Positions 41,269 to 60,145 of a stretch of DNA of 60,145 nucleotides are shown one piece after another (the stretch's first letter is position 1; each line of letters begins with the position of its first letter). This stretch comes from Cytophagales bacterium (GTDB taxonomy: Bacteria > Bacteroidota > Bacteroidia > Cytophagales > Cyclobacteriaceae): the NCBI GenBank assembly GCA_022360055.1, contig JAKSDO010000242.1, forward strand, positions 1 through 60,145. Reading direction: 5' to 3'. The notes beneath the pieces are model-generated. The model searched no databases and had not been told where the DNA came from. It saw nothing but the letters and a program-made list of their open reading frames with translations. A program made the translations under genes and the position numbers.

Positions 41269-44200
41269 TTATTCTAATATTAAATATGGAAGCTCACCAT
41301 TCCGTATTGCCTTTGCATAACCGGTCTCCATTTTTAAATAAATATTATTTGAATTTAAATGTAGATCAGTATCATATAATCTAATATTTGCTCTTGCAAT
41401 ATTATCAGATATTTTAAATAGTTCCTTTTTCAACTGAAATTCAAGAAAATAACCCCTATTTGTTTTCTCCCACTTAGCAGTGATATCAATACTTTGATTA
41501 TCATCTGGAACGAAAATCACATGGCCAGTCTCAAGCAAGAAGAGCTCTGTTTCAATAATTTTATTATTATTCCCGACAAAAGCCATAGAAATATGATCAC
41601 CATATGGATTGTCTTTATCCTTCTCCTGGCATATTACAAGATCATCATCTTCAACATCTATCCCGAATACAATAAAGTCTTCGTTAGACGCAATCATCAC
41701 ATCCGCACTTAGGTTTTCTTTGCCAAATGTAGTACCGGAATAATTATTCCTATCTATAGTGCCATTCCATTCATTTACACCCATTGATACTTGTGAAGAA
41801 TTTTTTATGCCTAATGGATTTGTCTCTTGCCATTCATGATTGTTACCATCAGCTATAAAAGTTTCAATCTTATTTACTTTAATAGCAGTTGCCTGATATG
41901 AGTCACTACCTTTTTCATCAGTAAAGATTTCATTATAAACTGAAGATTGAATATTTTGTATTAACCTTACAGTTTTTTTACCAGATTTGTTCACTTTATA
42001 AATTTCATCTGAGGATAAAAGATAAAAAGGTGTTTCATTTATTTGTGCTTTAAACAGTTTATCCTTAATTATTGATTCATTACCAAATCTGTCAATTACT
42101 CTCATATTCCCTTCGGACCCAAAATATTGCTCCAAGATTTCTCCTGCTGTGTACAAGCACAATCCATTTCCTTCAGCGCTTTTAAAGCTAAATCCTTCCC
42201 ACATCTCATTTTCTATCTCTTGAATATCCATTGCCCCATCCATGATATATGCACCTGTAGATGCTGTGGCCCATATACTAGTTGGAGAACCATCGGCAAA
42301 TCTTGTATAAAGTTCATCCCAACCAGATCCCTGACCAGTTCCTTTATGTCCGTATGCAATAGGTCTGTTAATAAAAACTATGTATTGCAGATAACCTTGT
42401 TTCTTATATAAAAACATTTCTTTAACTGCAGTATTAATCGATTCGTCACTCATACCCCGAAAAGATCTCTCGGTTTGTGTAAATGGCTTATTGATATTGC
42501 GCTTTTTAAGTTCATTTGCAACTCCATTAATGGCTTCCCATCCGGCATATCCATGTAGTCCGAAAACGTCAAAATAATTAGCGCCACCACTATTAAGCAT
42601 GTCAGGCACAAAAGTGTCTCGACCGGGAAGCTGGGTAAAACAGGTAACACCTGAACTTATAACCAACGCATCTGGATTCCCCTTTTTAACTCCATCATAA
42701 AAATATTTCAACATATCCGTGTAATCGGCACCTGTGCCAAACCAGCAAATGTTCAAATTATCCTTCCAAACAACTCTGTCCATTTCATTTAGAAATTCGA
42801 AATGCCTAATTCTTCCTTTATATTTTTTTGCAATGATCTCCATAGCATCAGACATATCATCAGGATGAAGTATTGGAGCAGATATATGAGGATTGCTAAA
42901 ATCTATTTCTTTTATACCATGCTTCGCAGCAAGTTTTTTCATATATGTAGTATCCCTGTCGCCTATATCAATTCCCATCATCGTCCATAAAATCTTAAAA
43001 TCCAAATCCAGGCGAGTTTTAGTATAGGCTTCTACATATGGCCAGCTCCTGGTATAATCTGGGGATTGGGAAACTTCATCAACTTGTCCTCCCGTTCTCA
43101 ACCACCTATACCCGGCCCTATGCAGGTCTGTCAGCTCATGTCTATCATATATATAGGCACCACCTTCATGATCTCCAATCCATGGTTCAATATCTCTATC
43201 CGGAACAATCAAAAAATGGGCTCCTCTATTAAATACATTATTTTCGCTAGATTTGGCCTCAACGTATAATGAATAATACCCTCTTGGTAATTCAGGACAT
43301 TCAATAGTTATTGTTGATTCTCCTGCAAGAATCTCCTTCTTTACATTAACTTTTTTATATATTTTGTTGTCGCTGCGGTTGATGTGTAAGTTGAAATCCA
43401 CATTGTTTTTTTCTTTGGAGAATACAATCAAAGACATCTCAGGTTTTTGATTATTGAAGAAAACATGACCTTGTCGAAGTACGTGTCGGATTTCAAAATC
43501 ATTATCAATATCCGGATTAAGATAGCGGATATCATCAATATAGATTTTGCTTTGTATTTGCTCTTCTACATCAATTTTTATTCTGAACCAGCGAAGTAAT
43601 CCATCATAATTCTCCACAATTTCTTTAGGTCCAAAATCCTTATCGTATGTAAGTGTGATCTTTTGCCATTCAGTTGATACTAAACTTATCGGCTTGCTAA
43701 ACATTTCCTGGTAACCGGGACTACCCCCCATAGCCTTTTTGTCTTCCTGATAATTGACATTAATTGTTAAAGAATTTTTTGACCCATCGCCTTTTAACCA
43801 AAACGATATCCCCTTATTGGGAACCTGATAGGTATACTCCTGGTAAATTCTATTTTTGTCATAGGAAATTGAAAGTACTTCTCCTCTTTCGGGATCGTTT
43901 ACCGGTACTCCTCCAAATTTTGGATCGTCACATTCATGATAAATATACTCAGCAGCTAAATCTATAAACCTAAATGCAGTTGTAAACCGATTTCTTTGAA
44001 TTGGTTCAAGAAATAGCCTCGGATTTTCTTTTTCGAGTTTAGCCAATGCGACCTCACCCGGACCTCCGATTACTGAAAACCATCCATTATCACCTCCTGT
44101 CGTCTTAATTGCTATCAGATTTTTACCTTTTATTAGTTTTGTTTCGAAGGTATGGCCAACAACCGAATATTCCGCTGAATTATTCCCCGTTTTCATAGTA

Positions 44201-44652
44201 GAGAATACTTCTTTGCCATTAATGTACCATTCCATCCACCAGTCTGATGATGTTCCAAAAGTAATTGTACAGTCTTCTTTTACATTCATATGTGCAAATG
44301 CAACACCACATGCTTTTGAATTATGCCTTCCTGCGATTTTGGCAAAATCAATTCTACTGTTTGCCAATTTTGCTGTTACAGGTGCAATCTCTTTGTTTAA
44401 ACCCGGAAGCGTTGTTGGAATACTATTAAAGGTTGAAAGATCAACTTTGTCAGCATCCAAATGGGTAAAAACAATCCAATATTGAGGAATAGGAAACTGT
44501 CTTTTTATTTTGTTGATCTCCTTTATTTTTGGGTGATCAATTTTAATACCCTTTGAACATGATATAATTAAAAAGATTATTAAAAAAGATGCTGAAAAAC
44601 CAATAAAAATTCTATTTGATTTTTTTAACAATGATAGATTGAAATTTTTCAT
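41269..44652 (-). CDS. Very large multidomain glycoside hydrolase, lipoprotein, family unclear
   Basis: The start at 44652 gives a clean lipoprotein signal (FLIIFLIISCSKG); the ATG at 44694 adds 14 residues. About 1127 residues. In order: an N-terminal GH2-type sugar-binding jelly roll (about 60-215, WWMEWYINGKEVFST), a CBM-like beta-sandwich (about 225-380, GISFWLKGDGSKNSLTINVN), a further sandwich (about 390-480), a TIM barrel (about 490-870) with acid/base Glu623 in FEFLNEMDRVVW and nucleophile Glu728 in FTQTERSFRG, and a C-terminal CBM9-like domain (about 945-1120, ADVMIASNEDFIVFGIDVED, YGDHISMAFVG). It resembles GH39/GH5 clan-A enzymes but I cannot name a family. It is the last gene of the right-hand transcript, following the SSS transporter gene. 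Confidence 0.75.
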   Translation of the reverse strand: MKNFNLSLLKKSNRIFIGFSASFLIIFLIISCSKGIKIDHPKIKEINKIKRQFPIPQYWIVFTHLDADKVDLSTFNSIPTTLPGLNKEIAPVTAKLANSRIDFAKIAGRHNSKACGVAFAHMNVKEDCTITFGTSSDWWMEWYINGKEVFSTMKTGNNSAEYSVVGHTFETKLIKGKNLIAIKTTGGDNGWFSVIGGPGEVALAKLEKENPRLFLEPIQRNRFTTAFRFIDLAAEYIYHECDDPKFGGVPVNDPERGEVLSISYDKNRIYQEYTYQVPNKGISFWLKGDGSKNSLTINVNYQEDKKAMGGSPGYQEMFSKPISLVSTEWQKITLTYDKDFGPKEIVENYDGLLRWFRIKIDVEEQIQSKIYIDDIRYLNPDIDNDFEIRHVLRQGHVFFNNQKPEMSLIVFSKEKNNVDFNLHINRSDNKIYKKVNVKKEILAGESTITIECPELPRGYYSLYVEAKSSENNVFNRGAHFLIVPDRDIEPWIGDHEGGAYIYDRHELTDLHRAGYRWLRTGGQVDEVSQSPDYTRSWPYVEAYTKTRLDLDFKILWTMMGIDIGDRDTTYMKKLAAKHGIKEIDFSNPHISAPILHPDDMSDAMEIIAKKYKGRIRHFEFLNEMDRVVWKDNLNICWFGTGADYTDMLKYFYDGVKKGNPDALVISSGVTCFTQLPGRDTFVPDMLNSGGANYFDVFGLHGYAGWEAINGVANELKKRNINKPFTQTERSFRGMSDESINTAVKEMFLYKKQGYLQYIVFINRPIAYGHKGTGQGSGWDELYTRFADGSPTSIWATASTGAYIMDGAMDIQEIENEMWEGFSFKSAEGNGLCLYTAGEILEQYFGSEGNMRVIDRFGNESIIKDKLFKAQINETPFYLLSSDEIYKVNKSGKKTVRLIQNIQSSVYNEIFTDEKGSDSYQATAIKVNKIETFIADGNNHEWQETNPLGIKNSSQVSMGVNEWNGTIDRNNYSGTTFGKENLSADVMIASNEDFIVFGIDVEDDDLVICQEKDKDNPYGDHISMAFVGNNNKIIETELFLLETGHVIFVPDDNQSIDITAKWEKTNRGYFLEFQLKKELFKISDNIARANIRLYDTDLHLNSNNIYLKMETGYAKAIRNGELPYLILE

Positions 44653-44841
44653 TATGATTTTGCTTTTAGTATATCCTATTTTTGGTGTAATCATGTATTA
44701 TTGTTTTGCTAAAGCCACAAATGGTTCAAACAACTATTGCCATATTTTCTTAATAGGGATGTCAACCCGAATAGCGCAGTTTGCATTTCATTATTTTTAA
44801 AAATTCTATCGTTTTCATACAATCGTTCTATCCGTTATGGA

Positions 44842-46593: not shown

Positions 46594-47763
46594 CTAAGGC
46601 ACCAGGCGGTCTACTACACTGAATTCATAGATCGTTCTGGTTTGATATGTATCCTCCGGCCCTAAAATAATTGAAGGGAAACCAGGTTGATTCAAAGCTC
46701 CGGGATAGCCTTGAGCTTCAAGACAAAAAGACTCCCTGTATTTCAACGAATTTCCATACTTCCCTACATCAGACCCATCCATGAAGTTTCCACCATAGAA
46801 CAATAGAACTGATTCCTCGGTAAACAGTTCCATTTTTCTTCCACTCTCAGGTTCATAAACATATCCGGCAAATCCCATTTCTTCAGGCATTTGCTTATTG
46901 ATAGGCCAATTATGGTCGTAACCGCCCCCATTTGTTAGTTGCACGTCTTCCGATTGTTTTGGCAAGTCGGTTCCAATTATCTTAGGTGTCCTGAAATCCA
47001 GAACAGTACCCTCTACTGACGGTATTCTGCCTGTTGGGATCAATGTTTCATTTACTTCAATGTACCTGTCTGCATTGATCATAAGGACATGGTCATTGAT
47101 AGTGCCCCCTTTTTCGCCACGTAAGTTAAAAAATGCATGGCTGGTTAACATGACCGGTGTTCGCTTATCGGTATTGGCTTTATAGCTAATGATCCACTCA
47201 TTTTGCAGGCTCAACTGATACATGACTTCAACGTTAAGGTTTCCCGGATAGCCCATCTCTCCATCAATGGAAGTGTATTTGAATACTATAGAGGTGTCAT
47301 TCACAGATCTCACGTCCCACACTACATTATGAAAGCCTCCTGCCCCTCCATGCAATTGATTGGTTTTATTGTTGACAGGCAGGGTATATTCGATACTATC
47401 CAAGGTGAATTTTCCCTTGTCGATCCTGTTTGCAACACGCCCAATAATGGCACCATGATAAACTTCATTTGCACTTAAGTAATCATCAATTGAGCTAAAT
47501 CCCAGTACAATATCTTCATATTCACCTTTTCGGTCAGGAACCAACAAACTTACAACTCGAGCCCCAAAATTGGTTACAAACATAGTGATATCACCGTTTT
47601 TGAGTTGGTAAAGGTTCGTGGCTTTTCCATTTATACTTACCTGAAAGTCTTTTGGGTTTAGCATCGAATATGGTGCGCTTTTTTGATGTGTTTTGGTGCA
47701 ATTGCCCAGTAGGGCTATACAGCCAATCAATAGTATGGTGATTTGTATAAGTTTCATTGGCAC
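46594..47763 (-). CDS. galM: Aldose 1-epimerase (GalM family), lipoprotein
   Basis: Interconverts alpha and beta anomers of aldoses. 389 residues with a lipobox LLGNC. GalM text is clear: VVSLLVPDRKGEYEDIVLGF, HGAIIGRVANRIDKGKFTLD, NQLHGGAGGFHNVVWDV, the catalytic-His region TSHAFFNLRG, YDHNWPINK, and the catalytic-Glu region CLEAQGYPGALNQPGFPSI with PGxxY-like TYQTRTIYEF. Export as a lipoprotein points to action in the periplasm, next to the SSS transporter gene 183 bases downstream. It could act on galactose, glucose or another aldose of the substrate. Confidence 0.93.
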   Translation of the reverse strand: MPMKLIQITILLIGCIALLGNCTKTHQKSAPYSMLNPKDFQVSINGKATNLYQLKNGDITMFVTNFGARVVSLLVPDRKGEYEDIVLGFSSIDDYLSANEVYHGAIIGRVANRIDKGKFTLDSIEYTLPVNNKTNQLHGGAGGFHNVVWDVRSVNDTSIVFKYTSIDGEMGYPGNLNVEVMYQLSLQNEWIISYKANTDKRTPVMLTSHAFFNLRGEKGGTINDHVLMINADRYIEVNETLIPTGRIPSVEGTVLDFRTPKIIGTDLPKQSEDVQLTNGGGYDHNWPINKQMPEEMGFAGYVYEPESGRKMELFTEESVLLFYGGNFMDGSDVGKYGNSLKYRESFCLEAQGYPGALNQPGFPSIILGPEDTYQTRTIYEFSVVDRLVP

Positions 47764-47862: not shown

Positions 47863-49497
47863 TTATTGATCGTCCACACCTTTCTCAACCGCACCGACCA
47901 AAGCGGCCCATGCTTCATAGTTAGAAATCAGCTCCGTTCTAACCCTTTGATTTTCTATCGAAACGTCGGTTCGTTCTGTTCGATCATTGGTCAAATCGAA
48001 TAACTTCCATGATTTGTCTTTTCTAAGTTTTACGATTTTCCAGTCTCCCATTCTTACTGCTTTATTTCCATCATGCTCCCAAACCAATATATCCTCATCT
48101 GTTCGAACATCAGGTTTTACACCGGTTAAAACCGAAACCAGGCTTTTTCCTTCCATCGGGTGTATATCCTGATCTCCAACTTTGCCAGGGTATTCTGCAC
48201 CGCCAAGTTCAACGGCAGTTGCCATTACATCGGTGATATGTCCCAGAGCATTGGTCAACCCACCCTTATTTTTGATTTTATCACCCCACCTTGCTATAAA
48301 TGGCGTAGCAATACCTCCTTCGTATGTATATATTTTGAATTTCTGATATGGAGTATTGGAAGCATTGGCCCAGGAAGAACCATACGAGTAATAAGAATCC
48401 TCACTTCCCATTTTATCAGTAAGGTCAGGTCTGAAATTCCTACCAAATGGACCATATTCATAGGATGCACCATTGTCTGAAAGGAACATTACTAAGGTGT
48501 TATTCAATTGCCCCGCTTTTTCCAATCTTGAGATAACTCTACCGATGTTCTGATCCATAACATCCACCATGGCAGCATAAATTGCCATTTTGAGATCCAT
48601 GGTGTCTTTTTGTTCTTTAGTCAGGTCATCCCAATTGGCAGTTGCTTCATCCAAAGGAGACAGCTTGAGTTTTTCATTTACCAATCCCATATTGACCATA
48701 TTGCTGTATCGCCTTTCCCGAAGTTCTTCCCAACCATCTTTGTACTTGCCTACATATTTTTTAATGACCGAATCGGGAGCGTGTAATGGCCAATGCGGTG
48801 CCTGATGAGCAATGTACATGAAGAATGGATCTGAGCTATAATTCTCAAAATGATCATCCAGGTACTCTATCGCCTTGTTCGTATACGCCGTTGTAGCGTA
48901 GAACCCATTATTGATTTGATCGTTGATTTTAGTGGTATCGTCGGCAAATATTCGTTTCACATTTTTCCTTTTTCCCTTTGTGATGTTCCAATAATTCATC
49001 GCTCCACTGATTAATCCATAATACTTATCAAAACCTCTATCTACAGGATATACAGGTCTAAATTCACCGATATGCCATTTGCCCGTCATATAAGTTCTGT
49101 AACCTGCAGGTTTTAGTACCTCTGCTATGGTTACGCAGTTGTCATTGAGATAACCTTGATATGGACTTTCTTCTTCAGCAACCTGATGATTGACCATACC
49201 ACCGACACCAGCCAAATGAGGGCTGATCCCCGTCATTAATGTTGCTCTGGTTGGGCAGCACCTGGCCCCGTTATAAAATTGAGTAAACCTTATTCCTTCA
49301 TTAGCTAGTTTATCCAAATTGGGTGTATTAATCTCACCACCGTAACACCCCAAGTCAGAGTAACCCATATCATCAGCCATGATGAGCAGGATATTCGGTT
49401 TGTTTTTTTTCTTAACCTCTGTTTCTTGTTTTAATCCCTGGTTACAGGCAATAATTAAAAGTATGCTTGAAAAAATGAGGAGTTTTTTAATATTCAT
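47863..49497 (-). CDS. S1-family arylsulfatase, lipoprotein (paralog of the 17103 gene)
   Basis: The start at 49497 is chosen because it yields a lipoprotein signal (MNIKKLLIFSSILLIIAC); an ATG at 49575 adds 26 residues unlike a signal. The protein has about 544 residues with metal site IMADDMGYSDLGCYGGE and formylglycine motif C-C-P-T-R beginning at Cys80, then ATLMTGISPHLAGVGGM. TGKWHIGE, AHQAPHWPLHAPDS and FLSDNGASYEYG follow, with WEHDGNKAVRMGDWK near the end. Its strong likeness to the sulfatase 30 kb away suggests duplication, with each copy perhaps acting at a different sulfate position or stage. Confidence 0.95.
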   Translation of the reverse strand: MNIKKLLIFSSILLIIACNQGLKQETEVKKKNKPNILLIMADDMGYSDLGCYGGEINTPNLDKLANEGIRFTQFYNGARCCPTRATLMTGISPHLAGVGGMVNHQVAEEESPYQGYLNDNCVTIAEVLKPAGYRTYMTGKWHIGEFRPVYPVDRGFDKYYGLISGAMNYWNITKGKRKNVKRIFADDTTKINDQINNGFYATTAYTNKAIEYLDDHFENYSSDPFFMYIAHQAPHWPLHAPDSVIKKYVGKYKDGWEELRERRYSNMVNMGLVNEKLKLSPLDEATANWDDLTKEQKDTMDLKMAIYAAMVDVMDQNIGRVISRLEKAGQLNNTLVMFLSDNGASYEYGPFGRNFRPDLTDKMGSEDSYYSYGSSWANASNTPYQKFKIYTYEGGIATPFIARWGDKIKNKGGLTNALGHITDVMATAVELGGAEYPGKVGDQDIHPMEGKSLVSVLTGVKPDVRTDEDILVWEHDGNKAVRMGDWKIVKLRKDKSWKLFDLTNDRTERTDVSIENQRVRTELISNYEAWAALVGAVEKGVDDQ

Positions 49498-49612
49498 TAT
49501 TTTCTTAATTAATGCTAACATAAAAGTATTCGGTATAATGAAACGGTTTCCATGGACCCAAGGAATTGTCTGCATTTGAGAATCCGAAATTTACTGGATA
49601 TTTGTTTCATAA

Positions 49613-50860
49613 CTAGTTCGTTAGTATTTCAATTTCCATTTGGTTCCATCTATAGTATTTCCAGTGATCATAGCCGGCATCAGACCAAATAAGCTGCATA
49701 TTTTTACCATCTTCACTTATCCACTTTGGATTTAATTTAAATCCATACGTACGGTTATCTTCAGCATCAGCGAAAAAGTATTCTGTGTAATAGAACTGCT
49801 CCCATGGCCCCCAGGGATTTTCGGCGTACCAGAATCCCAGGCTGCCCGGATACGTGCATTTTTTGCACCATCCGTCCCAGAACTCCTTACCCTCATCAGT
49901 GACGCCATAACTGACCATGATATATTGATCCAGTCCTTCATTGTAGACAACATCAGGGAACCAGGAAGCCCACATCCATTTACCATCAGTCCTTCTTTCG
50001 GGATATTGCAAATTAACTCCACGTTCTTTCATGTTTCGCGTCCACTCAGGTTTGTCACCGTTCCAGCTCTTGAAATACTCATATGCTGACTTATCAAGAA
50101 TATTTGATTTTTCAACCCGGATCATGGCCAATTTGCTGGGTTCATATTGTTCAGGTGCATACATGTAGACATAATCATCCTTCGCACTGGAATTATCCTT
50201 TCCATTCTGGCAAAAAGCAATCCAATTGAAAGCGTAAGCATCCCGGTCAATTTTCCATTTAGGATCCTCCTTGTAAAAGAAAAAGGAGCTTGAATCTGTC
50301 TCACTAAATGTTTCTTCGGTTTCTTTCTCCCCATTCCAGCGGTAGAAAGTCTGGCCAAAGTCAGGTGAATACAGCAAGCGGTTAGCTATTGGGCGAGTAT
50401 AGGATTGATCCCATGCACTCTTCCAAAGCCAGACATAAATTATGCCATCTACTGATACCGTTCCATATGCGTAAAAAGGTGAGAAAATACCGTTCTCAGG
50501 CCACCCAGTCATTCTTTTTACATCTGTGGAGGTAAAATTCGCATCGCCTTGGATTTGTAGGCACATTGAGCCGGACTGATTTGGAAATGCTACTGCTCCA
50601 ATGGTATCCCCCCACCAACCATTGCCATCATCCATCATGGTATATATATTATTGTCGGCCGCCCAGGTCTGGCACCAGTTATCGCCAAAATTTCCTTTTC
50701 GGGCAAGTGTATTCTTATGGAATACCACGCCGGTGGGAATTTCCTTAACAGGTGGACTGCAGCCTGGGAACAAAAGGAATATCGACAGCATGGTGATCGC
50801 AGTTTTAAGGCGGTTACCCTGTTTTTTTAGATGAAAATGGATTCCATTAACGTTGTACAT
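49613..50860 (-). CDS. DUF4185-like beta-propeller lipoprotein, copy B
   Basis: The start at 50860 gives a lipoprotein signal ending LLFPGC; the ATG at 50893 adds 11 residues. The mature part of about 380 residues begins IPTGVVFHKNTLARKGNFGD and continues NWCQTWAADNNIYTMMDDGN, a pattern like the DUF4185 family, some members of which are arabinan-acting glycoside hydrolases (GH183). Repeated WFPDVVYNEGLDQYIMVSYG and LGFWYAENPWGPWEQFYYTE suggest a five-bladed propeller. It is very similar to copy A (52392-53597), on the other side of the amidohydrolase gene. Substrate unknown. Confidence 0.7.
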   Translation of the reverse strand: MYNVNGIHFHLKKQGNRLKTAITMLSIFLLFPGCSPPVKEIPTGVVFHKNTLARKGNFGDNWCQTWAADNNIYTMMDDGNGWWGDTIGAVAFPNQSGSMCLQIQGDANFTSTDVKRMTGWPENGIFSPFYAYGTVSVDGIIYVWLWKSAWDQSYTRPIANRLLYSPDFGQTFYRWNGEKETEETFSETDSSSFFFYKEDPKWKIDRDAYAFNWIAFCQNGKDNSSAKDDYVYMYAPEQYEPSKLAMIRVEKSNILDKSAYEYFKSWNGDKPEWTRNMKERGVNLQYPERRTDGKWMWASWFPDVVYNEGLDQYIMVSYGVTDEGKEFWDGWCKKCTYPGSLGFWYAENPWGPWEQFYYTEYFFADAEDNRTYGFKLNPKWISEDGKNMQLIWSDAGYDHWKYYRWNQMEIEILTN

Positions 50861-50970
50861 AATTTCTAAATTTATCGCTTTTGATATCGACATGTTTCGG
50901 TGTATGCTTGAAATCTCACCGGATAAAGAGTGGATTACTTAGCACGGTCCCTATTTAAAAACGCTGATAA

Positions 50971-52359
50971 TTAGAACGTTCTACCTAACTTCTCTTCAAG
51001 ATTAAATACCGAGATCGCATTTTCCCTGAAGATATGCAGCATCATTTCTTTAGCCACATCTTCGGTTAGAAGTCCCCTTTTTATTCTTGCTGCAAGCACT
51101 TCGGCAACAACTGATTTCCCAAATTCAAGAGAACCCGTTGCCTCCTCAATGAAATCGCAATCACCGCCCCAGAAAATCTTGTTATAAGGAACGGCATCGA
51201 ACATTTCATCCAGGGATTGAACAGCTTCCTGTCTGGAGATCTGTGGCAGCCAAGAAAGATCCAGGTACACATTGGAAAACATCTTTCCTAAAGAAATAGA
51301 CTCTCCCGTCCAGGGAAAACCCCCATGTAACATCACGAACCTGGCTTTCGGATATTCAATGGCCAAATTGTTCAGCTTCATGGGCTTCCCGTTTTCGAGC
51401 CAGTTCCCTGCTCCGGCCAGGAATCCGATATGGATCTGTATAGGAAGCTGGTATTTAATAGTTTTTTGGATGAGCCAGTGATATACGAAGTCCTGAATCT
51501 TCTTAGCTTCCTGTTTCGTCAATTCTGCTGATGGTTTGTCAAAAAGCGCTCGGGCTTCTTCATAAGGAACATCCTCATAATCCAATGACCTGAAATAGGC
51601 CATTCCATTCTTTACACAAACCACATTGTTCTCCAAATACATCTGAAACAGCTTATCACAATAATCCAGATAATCATCAAGTGTGTTCAATTCATAACCT
51701 GCATCTAACGCACGTTTAAAAATCTCCGGTATGTTATCCCCTTTTCCCGGCTTAAGGCTGGAATGCAACACCAGAATATCGATACGAAATACAAGGGCGA
51801 AGTACTTTTCATCCATTTTGGTATTAAATGGCTCTCTCCACCTGTCCATGAACATCAATTCGAATCCAGCTTTATGGAATGCTTCATCGAACCAGCTCCT
51901 GTAATTCGTGTAATTCTCTTCAACCTGGGCTGAAAGATCATGAATATTGGACTCTGTAAAATAGAGATCATCGAAATCATATAATTTCTGGAATCCAGCG
52001 ACGAAATGACTGTAGAAGCTGGTGCCGCGACAATAGTCCAGCGACTTACCATTGATCTCCCAGTATTCCTCCAGGTTAAGACTATCCGCCCGATCCATCA
52101 CTATCCATTGTCCTCCTGCACAAACAATATCTTGCATCAGGTAGCTTTCAGTAATCAGGTGAGGCAAGCGAAAATGAAGATCTCCGTAATCTTCGGTCCA
52201 ACCATGGTGTTCATGTGTATCGATCACCTTAATCTCATCTGCAAAGGAGATTAAACTCTGATAATAGTTATTCTTTACTTGATCACACTGATTTAGTAGT
52301 CCACAGCTCAAGATCAGAGCACTGAATAAACATATGGTTTGTTTGGATAAAAATCTCAT
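50971..52359 (-). CDS. Amidohydrolase-superfamily protein (lactonase-type), exported
   Basis: The start at 52359 gives an exported protein with a Cys-containing signal (MRFLSKQTICLFSALILSCG); the ATG at 52428 overlaps the upstream gene. About 462 residues of an amidohydrolase-2-type TIM barrel: metal-binding VIDTHEHHGW near the N-terminus, LPIQIHIGFLAGAGN, FVMLHGGFPWTGE and FWGGDCDFIEE for the later His/Asp ligands. Relatives include L-fucono- and L-rhamnono-lactonases and other hydrolases acting on carboxylates. It sits between two DUF4185-like paralogs, downstream of rhamnose-type uptake genes. Export is unusual if it were a cytoplasmic sugar-acid lactonase. Confidence 0.8.
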   Translation of the reverse strand: MRFLSKQTICLFSALILSCGLLNQCDQVKNNYYQSLISFADEIKVIDTHEHHGWTEDYGDLHFRLPHLITESYLMQDIVCAGGQWIVMDRADSLNLEEYWEINGKSLDYCRGTSFYSHFVAGFQKLYDFDDLYFTESNIHDLSAQVEENYTNYRSWFDEAFHKAGFELMFMDRWREPFNTKMDEKYFALVFRIDILVLHSSLKPGKGDNIPEIFKRALDAGYELNTLDDYLDYCDKLFQMYLENNVVCVKNGMAYFRSLDYEDVPYEEARALFDKPSAELTKQEAKKIQDFVYHWLIQKTIKYQLPIQIHIGFLAGAGNWLENGKPMKLNNLAIEYPKARFVMLHGGFPWTGESISLGKMFSNVYLDLSWLPQISRQEAVQSLDEMFDAVPYNKIFWGGDCDFIEEATGSLEFGKSVVAEVLAARIKRGLLTEDVAKEMMLHIFRENAISVFNLEEKLGRTF

Positions 52360-52391
52360 GACAATATTTTTAAGAATTGAAATATCCGATA

Positions 52392-53597
52392 TTATTTCGT
52401 TAGTATCTCGATTTCCATTTGATTCCATCTATAATATGTAGAATGATCATCCCCAAAATCTGACCAGATCAGCTGCATACGCTTACCATCTGTACTTATC
52501 CATTTCGGATTTAGTTTAAAACCATAAGCACGATTATCTTCACTGTCAGCATAGAAGTATTCAGTATAATGAAACTGTTCCCAGGGGCCCCATGGATTTT
52601 CTGCATACCAGAATCCCAGGCATGCCGGATACTCGCAACCTCTGTTACACCATAGATCCCAGAATTCTTTGGTACCCTCATTGCTTAAGGCATAACTCAC
52701 CATTATATACAAGTCCAATCCTTCGTTGTAAACAACGCTTGGAAACCAGGAAGACCAAATCCATTCACCATCCGTTCTTCTCTCAGGATACTGTAGGTTG
52801 ACTCCGCGTTTAGTCATATCCTTTGTCCATTCAGGTGCTTCTCCATCCCAACTCTTAAAATACTCGTATTTTGATTTGTCGAGGATTTGTTTTTTATCCA
52901 CCCGTATTATGCCCAGACTTCGCGGTTCGTGCTGTTCAGGTGCATACATATAGACATAATTGTCCTTAGCGCTGGAATTGTCTTTTCCATTCTGGCAAAA
53001 AGCTATCCAGTTGAATGCATAAGCAAACCGATCAATCTTCCATTTAGGGTCTTCTTTGTAAAAGAAAAAAGAGCTTGAATCAGTTTCACCGAATGTTTCT
53101 TCTGTTTCCTTTTCGCCATTCCACCTGTAAAAAGTCTGACCAAAATCAGGGGAATAGAGCAATCTGTTTGCCACCGCACGCATGTACCAGCTATCTGACT
53201 GACTTTTCCACAGCCATACATAAATTGTACTGTCAACCGATACCGTGCCGTAGGCATATAACGGTGAAGAGGCATCGTTCTCAGGCCATCCGGTAACTCT
53301 TGTAACGTCAACATCGGTGAAATCCGCATCACCCCGAATCTGAATGCACATGGATCCGGATTGATTATTTGCTTCCTCTTTTTTGTCACTTCCCCACCAC
53401 CCATTTCCATCATCCATCATGGTGTAGATATGATTATCGGCTGCCCATGTCTGACACCAATTATCCCCAAGACTCCCTTTTCTTGCGAAGGTATCCTTAT
53501 GAAATTTAACTCCAGTTGGGATCTTTTTATCCAGGGAAACGCACATGGAGAACACTAGGCCCGACAAGCAGATTAAGGCAATATTTTTCGTTTTCAT
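52392..53597 (-). CDS. DUF4185-like beta-propeller lipoprotein, copy A
   Basis: A 401-residue protein whose signal ends VFSMC. The mature start IPTGVKFHKDTFARKGSLGD is followed by NWCQTWAADNHIYTMMDDGN, and most of the chain is nearly identical to copy B, including RLLYSPDFGQTFYRWNGEKE and KWKIDRFAYAFNWIAFCQNG. Differences cluster in the signal and in loops such as KKEEANNQSG, which suggests duplication followed by loop divergence. It is probably a secreted or surface glycan-active propeller. It lies 21 bases after the Tat-exported hydrolase gene. Confidence 0.72.
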   Translation of the reverse strand: MKTKNIALICLSGLVFSMCVSLDKKIPTGVKFHKDTFARKGSLGDNWCQTWAADNHIYTMMDDGNGWWGSDKKEEANNQSGSMCIQIRGDADFTDVDVTRVTGWPENDASSPLYAYGTVSVDSTIYVWLWKSQSDSWYMRAVANRLLYSPDFGQTFYRWNGEKETEETFGETDSSSFFFYKEDPKWKIDRFAYAFNWIAFCQNGKDNSSAKDNYVYMYAPEQHEPRSLGIIRVDKKQILDKSKYEYFKSWDGEAPEWTKDMTKRGVNLQYPERRTDGEWIWSSWFPSVVYNEGLDLYIMVSYALSNEGTKEFWDLWCNRGCEYPACLGFWYAENPWGPWEQFHYTEYFYADSEDNRAYGFKLNPKWISTDGKRMQLIWSDFGDDHSTYYRWNQMEIEILTK

Positions 53598-53618: not shown

Positions 53619-55817
53619 TCAAACAGCATTTAGTTCAAAACAGACAATCTCAGAAATAAGTATTCTTGGGACGGTTACCTCAATCCCATTATTCATAGAT
53701 CGGTTTTTTAATCTTTCTCCTGCTACGACCGTGGTAACGGCAACATCTTGCAGGGGAATATTTAACTTCACATAAACATCGGTTAATGCAACAGGATCAT
53801 CATGCATCTCGGAATGTTGTGGTGATTTCCTTACCGGAGAGTAATTAATGATATGTACCATATATCGTTCCGAACGATTTTCTTCTGCGCTTGCTTTTTG
53901 ATAGCTTACAGTAATCTCCGTTGAAACAGGGGCATTTGTTTCTACAAGCTTTTGAGGAAGAACCTTATTCACAAGATGTTTAAAGGCTTCCCTATAAATC
54001 CAATATCCATAGCCGGAATAACTTTTCCCCACCGGGAACCCAATTAAGCCAACGCCATTACTAATTGCCAGGGTCGAATATTCAGTAGTATGATCGTAAG
54101 GGGTTTGCCTGTGACTTGTAAAATGCTCAGCACTCCTATTAAACTTAGGTACACCTAACCTGGATATAGACTTTGCCGGAGATTCTACTTTCCATTGGGA
54201 TGCACCGTCGTATAGCACATACTCATAGCTTGGCATATTGTCAATAAAGTTATCCTCAGTTACATAATATGCTGGTTTAAATGGTGAATCCCCTTCATAT
54301 TTCATCCCATATTTTTCAAGCCATGATTGTTTTGTATCAACTTGAAGCCCTCCATTATGACATACAATTACAGATCCTCCTTTACTTATAAATTTATGAA
54401 TACGCTCAACAGTCTTACTGTCAGGCATTAAATCATCCGGAATTATCAACAGGCTGTACTTCTCCCAATCCTGTTCAGGTTCAACCAGGTCAAACTGAAG
54501 GTGCATTTCCATCATTAGTTTTACCAATCCAAAAATAAAGGGTTGGTTCACATGTCCCAGTGGGATTGCCGGGATCATGAGAGCGGCCTCGGTTACAGGA
54601 GCAGCTTGTTCCAACCAAGGTTCCATTTTTTTAATCCTGCCAAACGACTTATTAAGAACATGATATACCGCTTTATCCAAAATTCCGTCAGGAGGCATCT
54701 GGTCACCAACATCACAATGGGCTGCATTGGCAACAAGGCTGGCCAATTCAACATCAAACTGTTCGGGAGTTTTTAATCCTCCAAAGTCGGCCCATGAACC
54801 AATAAAACGCCCTGTCATACCAAAGACAGGAAGACCAAAATTTCGCTGATAACGAATCTGGGCCGGAGCATAAAAATATCCCCACTGAGGATATGTTGGC
54901 AACGCTTCCACATCAATATTATCGAGATAACCTACTCTTTCGCTTACTTTGCCATAAACCCAATCGTTGAAGTCGACCTGAGCGCCTGGCCTGGTGGCAT
55001 GTACCAGTTCCTTCATTCGCTTATGAAAATCGAGCATACTTTTATTTTGATGCTCGCGTTGTGCTTCCAAATTGTATGGATCCTTTCCCTTAGCCCTGAT
55101 CCGCCTGAGACACTCGTCGCAGTAACATTCCGGGGCTATGGGTATGGCCATGTCCAGCCATGCGCCATCCAATTCGTAATTAGTCATAAATTCTGTAACA
55201 TGATCTGCCATGAGATCAACAAAATCCTTATTGCCCAAACACATGGCCGTCCAATCAGGAGTTTCGCCTTCCTTAGGAAGATAATCTGATCCATCGCGCT
55301 TCCTCATGTTCCACTCCGGATGCTTGTAGGTCAGGTTATGATCCCAGGCACAACAATAGTATGCATACACCTTGATATCGCGCTCCTTGCAGGCCTTTAC
55401 CTGCTCTCCCAGCAAGTCGATGGATAAGCCTGGGTGTACCGGGCCATATTTGCTGGGGTAATAAAAATTACCATGCATATCCTTTGCAAATGTTACAATA
55501 CTATCTACATTTCCTGCCAGCAACTGATCGCCCCATTGATCCGCATCAAAGCTTTCCGCTATCTTGCCAATATGATGTGTATTATGAAAATCAAGATGGA
55601 TTTTTCGCCAGGGAATGCCTTTCATCTCTGTGAAACGCTCGTCTATTCTGAATTTTGGCGCTTTACTACTAAAAGATTGGCTGCCTGACTTGCCGCTTTG
55701 GTTTTGTCGGTTTTCAGAACCATAAGATGTACAGCTATGTAAAGAAATGACTTGGGCCGAACCAATTCCTGCTCCTAACGTAGTTAAAAAATGCCTGCGA
55801 TTAATTGCTTTTTTCAT
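53619..55817 (-). CDS. GHL6/GH42-like glycoside hydrolase with Tat signal
   Basis: A 732-residue enzyme with a twin-arginine signal (NRRHFLTTLGAG). The TIM-barrel part (about 60-410) begins IPWRKIHLDFHNTHHIGKIA, with KDMHGNFYYPSKYGPVHPGL and YAYYCCAWDHNLTYKHPEWN, like the hypothetical glycosyl hydrolase 6 and GH29/GH151 alpha-fucosidase-like group. GAWLDMAIPIAPECYCDEC supplies an Asp and a Cys cluster. A class-I amidotransferase-like trimerisation domain (about 455-560, YSLLIIPDDLMPDSKTVERI) as in GH42, and a C-terminal sandwich follow. Located 31 bases downstream of RhaT, it may be an alpha-L-fucosidase or rhamnosidase-type enzyme; this is inference. Confidence 0.75.
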   Translation of the reverse strand: MKKAINRRHFLTTLGAGIGSAQVISLHSCTSYGSENRQNQSGKSGSQSFSSKAPKFRIDERFTEMKGIPWRKIHLDFHNTHHIGKIAESFDADQWGDQLLAGNVDSIVTFAKDMHGNFYYPSKYGPVHPGLSIDLLGEQVKACKERDIKVYAYYCCAWDHNLTYKHPEWNMRKRDGSDYLPKEGETPDWTAMCLGNKDFVDLMADHVTEFMTNYELDGAWLDMAIPIAPECYCDECLRRIRAKGKDPYNLEAQREHQNKSMLDFHKRMKELVHATRPGAQVDFNDWVYGKVSERVGYLDNIDVEALPTYPQWGYFYAPAQIRYQRNFGLPVFGMTGRFIGSWADFGGLKTPEQFDVELASLVANAAHCDVGDQMPPDGILDKAVYHVLNKSFGRIKKMEPWLEQAAPVTEAALMIPAIPLGHVNQPFIFGLVKLMMEMHLQFDLVEPEQDWEKYSLLIIPDDLMPDSKTVERIHKFISKGGSVIVCHNGGLQVDTKQSWLEKYGMKYEGDSPFKPAYYVTEDNFIDNMPSYEYVLYDGASQWKVESPAKSISRLGVPKFNRSAEHFTSHRQTPYDHTTEYSTLAISNGVGLIGFPVGKSYSGYGYWIYREAFKHLVNKVLPQKLVETNAPVSTEITVSYQKASAEENRSERYMVHIINYSPVRKSPQHSEMHDDPVALTDVYVKLNIPLQDVAVTTVVAGERLKNRSMNNGIEVTVPRILISEIVCFELNAV

Positions 55818-55848: not shown

Positions 55849-56916
55849 TTAGAGTGTATTAATCAATTGTTCTCCGATATAACTTCCATAACTGATCATA
55901 CAGAAGGAGAAGATTAAGATTATTAAACCAATTATTAATACAACATAAGTCACCGTCTTCACCCTTTTCCATTCTTTCATAAGCAAGCCGACGATATAGC
56001 TAAAAAAAATAAGCATTGACATGTGTAGCACCCAACTGGCAAACTGAAAGTTACCCATCTTAACGTGCCCTAATCCGTAAAAGAAAAATTGAAGTATCCA
56101 GAGAGTTCCTGCCAGAGACGACCATAGCCAATTGCGAAAAACAGTCCGGAAAGGCAGTTCTTGTGTGGGATAAAGCTCTTTCAAAGTCCCGTTTCTGATA
56201 CCAGCTACTATAAACCAAATAAAGTTGACAACAAAACACCCTGATGTTGAAACAATCAGTTTAGCATTTCCTTCAAAATGTCCGGCACCATTTTGTGTAG
56301 CCATATCAGATATTGGTTGGCCATATTCCAGCGATAAGTTAAAAACCCCCGATAACACACCGGCAAAAACCGTCAACACCAATCCAACCGACATGTTAAA
56401 TCCTGATTCGCTTGATCTGCTATCGTTCAAATCCTTCTCTTTTTTGAAACCTGCCCAACCGCAAAAAAACACACCAACTAACGAAAGGATCATTCCGATC
56501 AGTACGATATCTCCCCCCGGCTTGGTGAAAAAGTCACCTAGCCCTCCTAAGAAGATCAACGGCAATACAGTGCCCATTACTGACGAAATGCCAATTGCTA
56601 TGGTATATGTCAATGAATACCCGATATGATTGATGGCCTTGCCAAATGACATGCCACCAAATCCATAAGCAGCACCCAACAGAAAAGCTGTCCAGAACGG
56701 TGCCCGCGGCGCTTTACTTAAAATGCTGAAAAAATCCGGTACGGTCAGCCAACCGATGATGATCGGCACGATAACCCAGGCAAACATCGCCTGAACGAGC
56801 CAAAAAGTCCCCCATGACCATTTTTTTGTCTGAGTATTTGGTAGGTAACAGACCGCAGTTGACATACCTCCAATGGCATGAAGGCCGGTACCAATAATCG
56901 GATTAGGTGAAATCAT
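55849..56916 (-). CDS. rhaT: L-rhamnose/H+ symporter homolog (RhaT family)
   Basis: The start at 56916 matches the family N-terminus, MISPNPIIGTGLHAIGGMST; the ATG at 56961 adds 15 residues. About 355 residues, ten predicted membrane segments. Family text: AVCYLPNTQTKKWSWGTFWL, AFLLGAAYGFGGMSFGKAIN, YTIAIGISSVMGTVLPLIF, and late LWSSLAGTLWILQFFFYGLG with KMGNFQFASWVLHMSMLIFF. It imports L-rhamnose, or a related 6-deoxyhexose, with protons. Its place between the fused oxygenase and the Tat-exported hydrolase supports a deoxysugar as an end product of this locus. Confidence 0.92.
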   Translation of the reverse strand: MISPNPIIGTGLHAIGGMSTAVCYLPNTQTKKWSWGTFWLVQAMFAWVIVPIIIGWLTVPDFFSILSKAPRAPFWTAFLLGAAYGFGGMSFGKAINHIGYSLTYTIAIGISSVMGTVLPLIFLGGLGDFFTKPGGDIVLIGMILSLVGVFFCGWAGFKKEKDLNDSRSSESGFNMSVGLVLTVFAGVLSGVFNLSLEYGQPISDMATQNGAGHFEGNAKLIVSTSGCFVVNFIWFIVAGIRNGTLKELYPTQELPFRTVFRNWLWSSLAGTLWILQFFFYGLGHVKMGNFQFASWVLHMSMLIFFSYIVGLLMKEWKRVKTVTYVVLIIGLIILIFSFCMISYGSYIGEQLINTL

Positions 56917-57007
56917 TATACCTTTTTTGCAATTGATTAATATAAATTTGAAGGGCTGCATCCGGGTTTATCCTGTTTTCCATTTTTTTGTTCAGTAGTT
57001 CCGTTAT

Positions 57008-59275
57008 TTAAAATTCATCGAAAGCAATCATATTCTCAGATACACCTATTTTTCCCAATATCTCCAAAACTGCCTTGATCATGGCCGGAGGGCCACACAA
57101 ATAATATTCTACCTCCTGGGGATTGGGATGATCTTTAAGACACTCATCAGAAAGTACCTGATGAACAAAACCGACATAACCCTCCCATTCCCTGGAATTG
57201 GAACTTTCCGACAATGCCAGATGATATGAGAAATTATCATGTTCTTGCTCCATCTTTTCAAAGTATTCACGGTAAAAAACATCGCGCAAAGATCGTGCAC
57301 CATACCAGTAGCTTACCTTTCGTTTCGTTTTGAGGGTTTCGAACAAATAAGATAAATGCGAGCGCAAGGGTGCCATTCCCGCACCACCACCAATGTAAAT
57401 CATTTCCCTGTCTGATTGCTTAATGTGGAAATCACCAAAAGGGCCGGTTAGCTCTACTTCATCACCGGGTTCCAGGTTAAAAACATAAGAGGAGCCCACC
57501 CCTGCGCTAATATTCGGATTGTTCTCAGGAGGCAAGGAAATCCGGATATTGAACATGAGCGGCTTTTGGGTTTCCGGGTTTGTAGCCATGGAATAATTGC
57601 GCTTCGAGTAAATCCCATTTTTAGCAAAACACCCGTGCAGCCTCAATTCCTGCCATACGTTATCAAAAGGCGGATCAATACGTACATTTTCCAGACTCAT
57701 CTCAAAGGGAGGAATTTTCATTTGAATATATTCCCCCGGTTCAAAGTGAAATGCCTTTTTATCCGCAGGCTCCAGCACAAGTTCTTTGATGAAGGTCGCA
57801 ACGTTCCTGTTGCTCACGACCCTAAACGTCCGCTCATTCTCCTTTTCTTCCATCAATCCATCGGTGATTGACTCAAGATGTAGTTTCACCATACCGTCTT
57901 CGGCAGATACCGGATAGGTTTTTATTCCGATACATACGGGAGCTCGTTTTGGAGACCCGTCTTTTAGATCGAAACGGCCGTTGTGTTTGGCGCATTCAAT
58001 CAAATCACCTATGATCACACCTTCGGCCAGGTGGGCATTACCATGCGTACATATCCCATCTGTGGCATAAAACCTATCCTCTCCGGTGTGATAAATCGCA
58101 TAAGTTTTTTGGTCATAGTCAAACCGGATGACTTCGCCCTTTGGTAGTTCTTCGACTTTGCAAACTGTAATTTTTCCATCAGCAAGCAACGCTGATTCAC
58201 CAATAAATTTATACTGTTGTTTGACCGAAGGAACACTGGATTTTTCCGGCAATTTACGTTCTACATAATACGATGGATTTTTCACCTGTTTCAAAATGGC
58301 AGGGATAATTTCTTTATAGGTTTCGATAATGCCATTATAGGGGGTCGGGCAATCACCTTTCATTAATTTGTGCAAACGCGGAAGGGCGTGATACGGAACC
58401 AGCGGAAACATGTGGTGTTCCACGTGATAGTTCATGTTCCAGTACAAAAACCGGTGCACTCTGTTCATGTAAACCGTCCGGCAATTCAGCCGGTGGTCCA
58501 GCACATTCTCCTGCAATCCTGCATGCTGTGTAAGTCCGTATATTGGCATGAGCCAGGTGCCGATAAGTGTGGGCAAACCGACAAAAAACAGGGGCATGGC
58601 GGTACCATAATATACGGCCAGGAAAATGACGGTTAAAAAAATCAACATGTATATCCTGGCTTTGAAAAATATCTTTCTGTATTCCGTTTCGGGAACATAA
58701 GTTGCCACTTCAGGGTCGATTCTTCCGGCGGCATGTTTCAGGAGTCTTCTAAATTCAGGAATGGCCTGGCTAATACCAAAAAATCCCAGTATGATCTTCT
58801 TAATGTCGGGAGGCCTTGGCACAGCGATTTCGGGATCTCGCCCCCTGATAATCGTATCGCTGTGGTGGCGTGCATGACTCCACCTCCAAACTGTAGACTG
58901 CCTGAATACCATAAAAGATGAAATCTCATAAAGAAGATTATTCATCCAGTCGGTTTTGAATGCCGTGCCGTGGCTGGATTCATGCCATCTGGAATCGGAG
59001 CTTGATGCAAACAATATACTGTAGGCCAGGATTGGAAAAATGACATACCACGATCCCCAAAACAGGTAGATCAAATATCCGGACCCGAAAATCAAGCCAA
59101 ACCAGACAATGGTATCCCTGATGGCCGGGCCGTTTTTGCGTACCAACAGCTCGCGCATTTGATCCCTGGGTATGGGTGTCTGATACCATTCGGCATCGGC
59201 CAGTCCCATTTCAATTGCTTTCTCCGATTCGACACCGATGAGACTGTAATCCCTCAATAGATCTTCTTTTTCCAT
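57008..59275 (-). CDS. Fusion of membrane desaturase, Rieske ferredoxin and FAD/NAD(P) reductase
   Basis: A 755-residue, seemingly self-sufficient di-iron oxygenase/desaturase. Residues about 50-335 form a membrane fatty-acid-desaturase fold with His boxes HESSH (98-102), HARHH (134-138) and HVEHH (284-288), plus hydrophobic segments at about 53-92 and 205-245. A Rieske domain follows (about 365-468) with CTH (409-411) and CAKH (428-431) binding a [2Fe-2S] cluster. The C-terminal reductase (about 480-755) has the FAD motif RNYSMA (559-564), nucleotide-binding GGGAGMAPLRSH (629-640) and CGPPAM (727-732), like NqrF-type reductases. Electrons could pass NAD(P)H-FAD-Rieske-di-iron within one chain. 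Its substrate is unknown; its neighbours, mutarotase and RhaT, suggest a sugar-derived or membrane lipid substrate. Confidence 0.9.
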   Translation of the reverse strand: MEKEDLLRDYSLIGVESEKAIEMGLADAEWYQTPIPRDQMRELLVRKNGPAIRDTIVWFGLIFGSGYLIYLFWGSWYVIFPILAYSILFASSSDSRWHESSHGTAFKTDWMNNLLYEISSFMVFRQSTVWRWSHARHHSDTIIRGRDPEIAVPRPPDIKKIILGFFGISQAIPEFRRLLKHAAGRIDPEVATYVPETEYRKIFFKARIYMLIFLTVIFLAVYYGTAMPLFFVGLPTLIGTWLMPIYGLTQHAGLQENVLDHRLNCRTVYMNRVHRFLYWNMNYHVEHHMFPLVPYHALPRLHKLMKGDCPTPYNGIIETYKEIIPAILKQVKNPSYYVERKLPEKSSVPSVKQQYKFIGESALLADGKITVCKVEELPKGEVIRFDYDQKTYAIYHTGEDRFYATDGICTHGNAHLAEGVIIGDLIECAKHNGRFDLKDGSPKRAPVCIGIKTYPVSAEDGMVKLHLESITDGLMEEKENERTFRVVSNRNVATFIKELVLEPADKKAFHFEPGEYIQMKIPPFEMSLENVRIDPPFDNVWQELRLHGCFAKNGIYSKRNYSMATNPETQKPLMFNIRISLPPENNPNISAGVGSSYVFNLEPGDEVELTGPFGDFHIKQSDREMIYIGGGAGMAPLRSHLSYLFETLKTKRKVSYWYGARSLRDVFYREYFEKMEQEHDNFSYHLALSESSNSREWEGYVGFVHQVLSDECLKDHPNPQEVEYYLCGPPAMIKAVLEILGKIGVSENMIAFDEF

Positions 59276-59394
59276 AACCTCCTGTTCAATTAATACATCA
59301 GGGTTTAAGCTCGTTCTTTAAATAATTGATCTTCATAAAATTTGTTTCTGTATTGTCGTCACTAACACAGCTATTATTGTTTAATCATTGCATT

Positions 59395-59402
59395 CAAACT
59401 TA
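59395..59402 (-). promoter_or_regulatory. Candidate -7 box upstream of the fused oxygenase
   Basis: On the minus strand the bases read TAAGTTTG, a full match to TAnnTTTG, in the 161-base gap before the desaturase fusion (leader about 110 bases). An imperfect ATTG sits about 22 bases further upstream where TTTG is expected. It may start a transcript for the fusion and RhaT apart from the mutarotase. Confidence 0.35.
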
Positions 59403-59436
59403 CTTATCCATATCTCTATTCTGCCAATTTTCCATT

Positions 59437-59760
59437 TCAATCCAAATGAAAAACCTCCTCCATACCTGCCCAGAATTCCCCTGCACTTCTGGATTCAAGC
59501 GGCTCCATTAACGGTTTCACCACGTCCCACCACTGTTGTGTTTCCGGATCTGCAGCCATCTTTGCCATATCTGCTTCATAATTATCACCGGTGTATTCAA
59601 AGTAGGCAAACAGAAAATTATCTCTGAAATAGATGGAATAATTCCTGATGTTACAGGCGGAGATCATTGAGATCACGTTTGGCCAAATCTTTTTGTGATG
59701 ATGAATATATTCGCTCGCTCCTTCCGGTTTTAGCCGGATCATTTGTCCATAACGATGCAT
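59437..59760 (-). CDS. rhaM: L-rhamnose mutarotase family protein
   Basis: A 107-residue cytoplasmic enzyme interconverting the anomers of L-rhamnose or L-fucose. The family pattern is complete: RYGQMIRLKPEGASEYIHHH, WPNVISMISACNIRNYSIYF, NLFAYFEYTGDNYEADM-like text, ADPETQQWWDVVKPLMEPL and a closing WAGMEEVFHLD. The length matches the family. It starts 1 base after the URO-D-family gene, so the two are co-transcribed. Members of this family act on rhamnose or fucose, and sequence alone does not decide which. Confidence 0.92.
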   Translation of the reverse strand: MHRYGQMIRLKPEGASEYIHHHKKIWPNVISMISACNIRNYSIYFRDNFLFAYFEYTGDNYEADMAKMAADPETQQWWDVVKPLMEPLESRSAGEFWAGMEEVFHLD

Positions 59761-59761
59761 T

Positions 59762-60145
59762 CTAATTTTCTTTTAATGCATCAAATAGTGCCTTGATATT
59801 TGCAGGAGGTATATCCGGTAAGATCGCCTCATGACTCGGAGAAATAATCAGTCCGGTCGGGAATATGTCCTTCAGTTCATCAACTTTTTTTGCCACTTCT
59901 TCCGCGCTCCCGTTCACCAGCAGTTCCTGAGCATCCACACCTCCGCAAAATGCCGTCTTTCCGGTGAAATGCTTTTTCAGATTGGGGGCATCCATATCAC
60001 TTGCTAAGGCCTGGATGGGGTGGATAATATCCGATCCCAAACCGGTTAAATCCTGAATGATGGGGAAAATGGAGCCGCACGAATGATGCATCACCGTTAG
60101 CCCATAGCTCTTAGCCTGCTCAATGAGCTTTCTGGTACCGGGGAA
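59762..60145 (-). CDS. Uroporphyrinogen decarboxylase (URO-D) family protein, 5' part outside window
   Basis: The C-terminal 127 codons of a URO-D-fold protein; the reading frame is open to the window edge. MHHSCGSIFPIIQDLTGLGS with DIIHPIQALASDMDAPNLKK, TAFCGGVDAQELLVNGSAEE and TGLIISPSHEAILPDIPPAN are the standard late motifs of the family. In catabolic operons these are usually not haem enzymes but methyltransferase-like or undefined proteins. Its pairing with a rhamnose-type mutarotase suggests a role in deoxysugar or methylated-sugar metabolism. Confidence 0.9.
   Translation of the reverse strand, partial: FPGTRKLIEQAKSYGLTVMHHSCGSIFPIIQDLTGLGSDIIHPIQALASDMDAPNLKKHFTGKTAFCGGVDAQELLVNGSAEEVAKKVDELKDIFPTGLIISPSHEAILPDIPPANIKALFDALKEN

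Follow-up and report, generated by a model that had tools for sequence, protein, structure and literature searches.

O-methyl groups block the ordinary catabolism of sugars, and the accessible parts of the literature covered describe just two systems that remove them from sugars or cyclitols: a P450 system acting on 6-O-methyl-galactose (PMC10033563) and MocD acting on rhizopine (PMC2593844). In the former, a P450, a ferredoxin and a ferredoxin reductase convert 6-O-methyl-D-galactose to galactose and formaldehyde (PMC10033563), and MocD is described as turning 3-O-methyl-scyllo-inosamine into scyllo-inosamine, an O-demethylation (PMC2593844). A desaturase-like oxygenase working with a Rieske ferredoxin has already been proposed for rhizopine in the part of that paper that is available (PMC2593844), so that an earlier note on the DNA studied here went too far in expecting that a comparable step by a membrane di-iron enzyme would be new. 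In the available parts of two further papers, mocDEF of Pseudomonas syringae is said to have an unclear role, aromatic hydrocarbons being considered too (PMC5132102), and mocD denotes a mannopine gene, which is a different use of the name (PMC6341043). The unfused genes are named mocD, mocEa and mocFa on a Rhizobium etli plasmid. Bahar 1998 is reportedly the reference cited for the rhizopine oxygenase proposal. The P450 system for 6-O-methyl-galactose is soluble and haem-based, whereas enzymes of the type described below are membrane di-iron proteins. Self-sufficient fusions of the AlkB or P450 type, in which an oxygenase is joined to its own redox chain, are also known; they differ from the present protein in oxygenase family and in proposed substrate.

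The DNA analysed here (the window) comprises an entire contig of 60,145 bases, the minus strand of which encodes, in a single intact frame of 755 residues starting with ATG, a fusion of oxygenase, ferredoxin and reductase (Table 1). In this protein, Pfam detects FA_desaturase at residues 75-315 (8e-33), Rieske at 369-455 (1e-15), FAD_binding_6 at 556-617 and NAD_binding_1 at 628-736 (2e-18), and the NCBIfam model nqrF matches residues 483-755 above its cut-off. The top-scoring Rieske model is MocE_fam_FeS (TIGR02377), which covers residues 369-466 with 111 bits, below its cut-off of 136.15; judged by an E-value threshold of 1e-20 instead of that cut-off, it is matched by 42 of 42 fusions. The desaturase-like histidines H98, H102, H134, H137, H138, H251, H261, H284, H287 and H288 and the Rieske ligands C409, H411, C428 and H431 are invariant in all 86 aligned rows, which stand for 83 distinct loci including the window, three loci being present twice. 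The repeats L001, L006, L093, L094, L126 and L171, the loci L173 and above and the short-coverage frames L065 and L084 were omitted from this alignment and from the MocD-domain tree described below. The claim of the earlier note that three redox modules are joined in one protein with all their ligands present is thereby confirmed.

Along the minus strand, the genes follow in the order URO-D, RhaM-like mutarotase, fusion, RhaT, fucosidase-like hydrolase, DUF4185-like protein, amidohydrolase, DUF4185-like protein and sulfatase, which also agrees with the placement of the fusion between a mutarotase and RhaT in that note. The first five junctions measure 1, 161, 46, 31 and 21 bases, and the run from URO-D onward is presumably a single transcript. 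Since the window is the whole contig, URO-D, the first gene of the run, is cut. The alpha-L-fucosidase 6tvk, matched by the hydrolase, is one that we assign to family GH151, and an RRHFL motif near the N-terminus of the hydrolase suggests Tat export. The RhaM-like protein is 52% identical to the RhaM adjoining a related fusion (L083), where the order is URO-D, RhaM, fusion and TIM barrel. Both the RhaM-like protein and RhaT score below the curated cut-offs of the NCBI L-rhamnose models, which leaves rhamnose as a candidate sugar. In total, the window encodes seven sulfatases, two SusD proteins, a TonB-dependent receptor and GH43, GH2 and GH28 proteins. Two predicted PUL proteins, at 41269-44694 (1141 aa) and 35288-36535 (415 aa), have no Pfam match at 0.001.

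Table 1 Features of the gene run around the fusion, in window coordinates.
Feature	Position	Strand	Remarks
URO-D/MtaA-like protein	59762..60145	-	truncated at the contig end (127 aa); 345 aa in the copy on C291
RhaM-like sugar mutarotase, 107 aa	59437..59760	-	starts 1 base past the URO-D stop codon
MocD-MocE-NqrF fusion	57008..59275	-	di-iron desaturase-like oxygenase, residues 75-315; Rieske ferredoxin, 369-466; FAD/NAD reductase, 483-755
RhaT-family sugar symporter	55849..56961	-	46 bases past the fusion
Glycoside hydrolase	53619..55817	-	near full-length match to the solved alpha-L-fucosidase 6tvk, residues 65-730
DUF4185-like protein	52392..53597	-	below the Pfam cut-off
Amidohydro_2-family protein	50971..52428	-	domain match
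Second DUF4185-like protein	49613..50893	-	below the Pfam cut-off
Sulfatase	47863..49575	-	domain match
Galactose-mutarotase family protein (Aldose_epim)	46594..47763	-	profile matches

The first two modules are homologous to MocD and MocE. Residues 8-346 are 53.8% identical over 340 aa to the MocD, and residues 364-463 are 46% identical to the MocE, of an unfused plasmid locus (L245) that contains a regulator, a binding-protein gene, Gfo/Idh, iolE and MocD-E-F. Its gene order is the same as that described for rhizopine loci in the accessible part of PMC10107442, and it is probably a genuine rhizopine locus. A MocD/MocE pair from Acidiphilium is, without gaps, 55% and 46% identical to the fusion. 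A tblastn search of plasmids (945 records) yielded adjacent genes annotated as 'fatty acid desaturase' and 'MocE family ferredoxin', mostly from rhizobia and colinear with residues 1 to ~467, and no fusion spanning 80% of the query. The fusion resembles rhizobial MocDEF in having MocD and MocE halves arranged alike, with identities of 46-55% and with the His boxes present in 12 of 12 compared rows, whereas MocDEF are three separate proteins and the fusion is one polypeptide with an NqrF-type reductase in a sugar PUL. When two MocF proteins were compared with the fusion, neither matched it at 1e-4, and the mocABCR neighbours were not seen beside it, their place being taken, up to the contig end upstream of URO-D, by URO-D, RhaM, RhaT and the fucosidase-like hydrolase. 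In a MocD-domain tree with the 86 fusions, one branch sets 11 MocD rows apart, but this tree was made by a quick method with a very long outgroup and gives no order of fused and split forms.

Twelve annotated unfused MocD loci were inspected; two more lacked annotation and were left out of the counts. A gene for a PanB-like hydroxymethyltransferase lies directly downstream in ten of the twelve (e.g. L087 and L245), and an eleventh (L088) was detected by a local PanB profile alone; the one PanB-like protein from these loci that was scanned falls below the panB cut-off. The one-carbon genes purU and folD occur in 3 of 12 loci (in L091 6 kb off and on the other strand) and 1 of 12 loci, respectively, and the PanB-like protein could perhaps capture the one-carbon unit that is released. 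In public records, the unfused relatives carry the label 'fatty acid desaturase family protein', so that the fused ones may be misread too.

The reductase half, judged by its sequence, appears to be derived from NqrF, unlike MocF. Residues 483-755 match positions 131-403 of the 405 positions of the NqrF profile, whereas positions 1-130, which comprise the membrane helix and the plant-type 2Fe-2S domain of NqrF, are unmatched and have the Rieske domain in their place. The identity to NqrF-like proteins, which were found in 34 of 39 searched genomes including that of the window, is 44-52%, and the window genome has a separate NqrF-like frame of 434 aa on another contig (C224). In a quick reductase tree, a branch with a support of 100 separates the 86 fusion reductases from 28 NqrF-like proteins, which points to a single origin of the fusion.

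A scan of genome contigs gave at least 566 relatives, of which the best 80 were examined, a sample in which short relatives are under-represented; all 80 match from residue 10 or earlier through residue 755. A single open frame is present in 78 of these loci and interrupted in L065 and L084, which excludes a chance joining of the modules. By record titles, the 80 loci include Bacteroidota, Verrucomicrobiota, Acidobacteriota, Planctomycetota and Chloroflexota. In the window's phylum, the fusion was found at E 1e-100 in 3 of 395 sampled genomes, the window's own included. In its genus, 3 of 7 genomes have it, again counting itself, so that the gene is an accessory one. There is one fusion in the window genome; a Verrucomicrobia genome (L030/L171/L172/L170) has two, ~30 kb apart.

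The 80 fusion loci (~3.6-22 kb each, 1,380 kb) were compared with 40 control stretches of 20 kb (800 kb) taken, in 15 genomes with the fusion, from the contigs that carry it. From 76 of the 80 loci, the ORF caller having missed the fusion in four, 210 operon neighbours were obtained, 64 loci having any neighbour. Sugar families lead their Pfam counts: at 1e-5, 17 neighbours match AP_endonuc_2, 15 URO-D, 13 Aldose_epim, 7 GFO_IDH_MocA, at least 5 Aldo_ket_red, 4 RhaM and at least 3 RhaT, in a tally of the 25 commonest families per half of the 210, any other family having at most two members per half. These Pfam counts are free of seeding bias and have no control, whereas the local profiles used for the comparison were mostly seeded from fusion loci, which flatters the p values that follow. 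With these profiles, TIM barrels were found in 46/80 fusion loci and 0/40 controls (p 1e-11), and 39 of 78 fusion loci have the barrel gene on the fusion's own strand at a distance of up to 300 bases. URO-D (18/80 against 0/40, p 3e-4), galactose-type mutarotases of the Aldose_epim family (16/80 against 0/40, p 9e-4) and deoxyhexose markers (RhaT, RhaM, GH78, GH29 and GH151 profiles; 21/80 against 1/40, p 7e-4) were likewise more frequent at fusions; the GH78, AraC and aldo-keto labels were assigned by eye and are backed by Pfam tallies alone. Rhamnosidase and fucosidase genes occur at fusion loci besides isomerase-like TIM barrels, mutarotases and RhaT/RhaM. The co-occurrence with RhaT (7/80 against 0/40, p 0.05) and RhaM (6/80 against 1/40) that the earlier note wished to see surveyed thus holds for some relatives and not for most, and its link to sulfated glycans stands locally, given the sulfatases of the window, but not in general, as the sulfatase profile was not enriched (1/80 fusion loci, 3/40 controls).

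A set of putatively methyl-handling families (URO-D, corrinoid, P450 and DUF1638-like) was found in 19/80 fusion loci and 0/40 controls (p 2e-4), 18 of the 19 having URO-D; the counts were 3/80 against 0/40 for P450 alone (p 0.29), 4/80 against 0/40 for corrinoid proteins alone (p 0.19) and 7/80 against 1/40 for P450 or PhyH (p 0.19). Folate one-carbon genes were not enriched (1/80 fusion loci, 1/40 controls). In L007, where the fusion is 68% identical, a P450, a ferredoxin, a ferredoxin reductase, a TIM barrel and the fusion stand in a row, and the P450 matches PDB 6g5o at 1e-190 with 637 bits, a structure that we take to be a carbohydrate-demethylating P450; a search of the window genome for a 6g5o-like P450 found none. 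In L022, the fusion lies beside a corrinoid protein nearest to the MtgC/MtbC models and two MtaA/CmuA-like URO-D proteins, all under the respective cut-offs, and a further protein that is presumably DUF1638. Around the first of the two fusions of the Verrucomicrobia genome (L030), there are profile matches to P450, corrinoid, URO-D and DUF1638-like proteins. All flagged sugar and methyl families are absent from 12 of the 80 loci, among them L017, L052 and L058 with ~10 kb on both sides, and in a locus of the window's genus (L125, 58% identity) a methyltransferase and Omp85 lie upstream, with a TIM barrel and Gfo/Idh 5-8 kb off on the other strand.

The same assembly contains a sister run (C291; L243, 1-4195) of URO-D, RhaM and RhaT, in which the fusion is reduced to a 3' scar: 79 bases between RhaM and RhaT are 76% identical to window positions 57007-57085, the 3' end of the fusion gene. 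The scar and the retained neighbours suggest that the fusion was lost from the sister run while the other genes stayed, which would suit an extra step needed when the sugar carries a decoration. The URO-D-RhaM stretch is 95.6% identical to window positions 59380-60145 and RhaT 78%, a difference between the two sides of the scar that suggests recombination or strain mixture, and C291 may be a second genomic copy or a strain mixed into the assembly. Two other loci of the window genome contain TIM barrels. In L205 (C146, 8105-12345), URO-D, a 120-aa protein, a TIM barrel, a PhyH oxygenase and a corrinoid-profile match stand in a row, perhaps as another methyl-sugar locus, and in L206 (C180, 647-8319) one run comprises an alpha-L-fucosidase, an MFS protein, a TIM barrel, a PhyH oxygenase, an activase-like radical-SAM protein and a PFL-like protein whose glycyl-radical match falls short of the cut-off. 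The predicted structure of the TIM barrel (pLDDT 94.8) resembles D-psicose 3-epimerase, IolE and YcjR, and its fold is sugar epimerase-like. We had considered the TIM barrel as a demethylation-specific partner of the fusion. This idea is weakened by 20 TIM loci from elsewhere in the phylum, drawn from 21 matches outside the window genome, which contain the fusion in 0/20 and PhyH in 5/20 cases (1/40 in controls) and include other contexts, namely DUF1501/PSD1 genes in L222 and a KDPG aldolase in L213.

Anatomy, kinship with MocD and MocE and neighbours together fit a sugar O-demethylase better than a lipid enzyme, and we consider it probable that the fusion, as a member of the MocDE family, acts as a self-sufficient O-demethylase on sugars. 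The demethylation itself is deduced from the relatives; that the substrate here is perhaps an O-methyl deoxyhexose is deduced from the gene run and is the least certain point, the identity of the sugar being a guess. In the proposed pathway, the exported alpha-L-fucosidase-like hydrolase would release the O-methylated deoxyhexose, the RhaT-family symporter would bring it in and the RhaM-like mutarotase would set its anomeric form. NADH would then supply the electrons, which FAD and the Rieske cluster would pass on to the membrane di-iron site; there the O-CH3 group would be hydroxylated, and the hemiacetal would collapse to free sugar and formaldehyde, presumably on the cytoplasmic side. This proposed net reaction is the same as that given for the P450 system in the available part of PMC10033563, which differs in protein families and in using three proteins instead of one. 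The oxidative step on a sugar or sugar acid that the earlier note considered is partly supported, in that relatives mostly lie beside sugar genes and MocD/MocE, the nearest kin with a published role, serve in the O-demethylation of a sugar-like cyclitol, though without its novelty and its general tie to sulfated glycans.

The oxygenase could also act on a carbon of the sugar or cyclitol, hydroxylating or dehydrogenating a deoxysugar, e.g. at the C6 methyl group, or a sugar acid and feeding a TIM-barrel isomerase. Membrane di-iron enzymes such as AlkB and XylM hydroxylate CH3 groups, and the frequent deoxyhexose markers and the TIM barrels close to the fusion would suit such a role. We regard it as unlikely, since the mutarotase types at fusions differ, being galactose-type in more loci than RhaM, which makes a common methyl group likelier than one fixed sugar carbon, since a few fusion loci carry the 6g5o-like P450 and corrinoid proteins and since the closest relatives to which a reaction has been assigned are ether demethylases, according to the available part of PMC2593844. 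The oxidation of a methylated cyclitol or amino-cyclitol, as proposed for MocDEF, with the deoxysugar neighbours being incidental, would agree with the identity to MocD of a rhizopine-type locus (54%) and with the finding that 3 of the 12 annotated unfused loci have an inositol 2-dehydrogenase or iolE gene nearby. It appears improbable here, as the fusion shares one gene run with the alpha-L-fucosidase-like hydrolase, RhaT and RhaM and no inositol gene was found among the scanned window proteins, a few short ORFs lying outside the scan.

A fatty-acid desaturase that lies in the PUL by accident, the alternative left by the earlier note, is very improbable and was rejected as the main reading. 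It could draw on the PF00487 match with three His boxes in the fusion, and on two of 14 fusion genomes (G430 and G444) in which the fusion is the sole FA_desaturase match. The family is, however, distant from ordinary desaturases: with the fusion-domain profile, MocD scores 420-453 bits and one paralog (L199) 161 bits, whereas the five other FA_desaturase proteins in all loci that reach E 1e-3 with the MocD/fusion profile have best domains of 17-27 bits. The window genome has a separate FA_desaturase protein of 364 aa (C218), and the fusion is rare in the phylum. Among the commonest neighbour families, those for sugars, transport and regulation prevail, the lone lipid-sounding one being PF13561 (enoyl-ACP reductase) with 2 of 105, equal to the general adh_short.

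A fused desaturase-Rieske-reductase acting as sugar demethylase was not found in the literature covered, which is a weak negative given its partial coverage and the thin inclusion of subscription journals. As a wider and more tentative proposal, to which we give slightly less than even weight, these fusions may constitute a class of membrane di-iron carbohydrate O-demethylases in one polypeptide, spread over five phyla, enabling glycan degraders to use O-methyl sugars and accompanied at some loci by P450 or corrinoid proteins, with oxygen-dependent or oxygen-free opening of methyl caps according to niche. If the sugar O-demethylase reading is true, the self-sufficient enzyme would be a handy biocatalyst, and its single gene would mark the use of methylated sugars in marine, soil and peat habitats.
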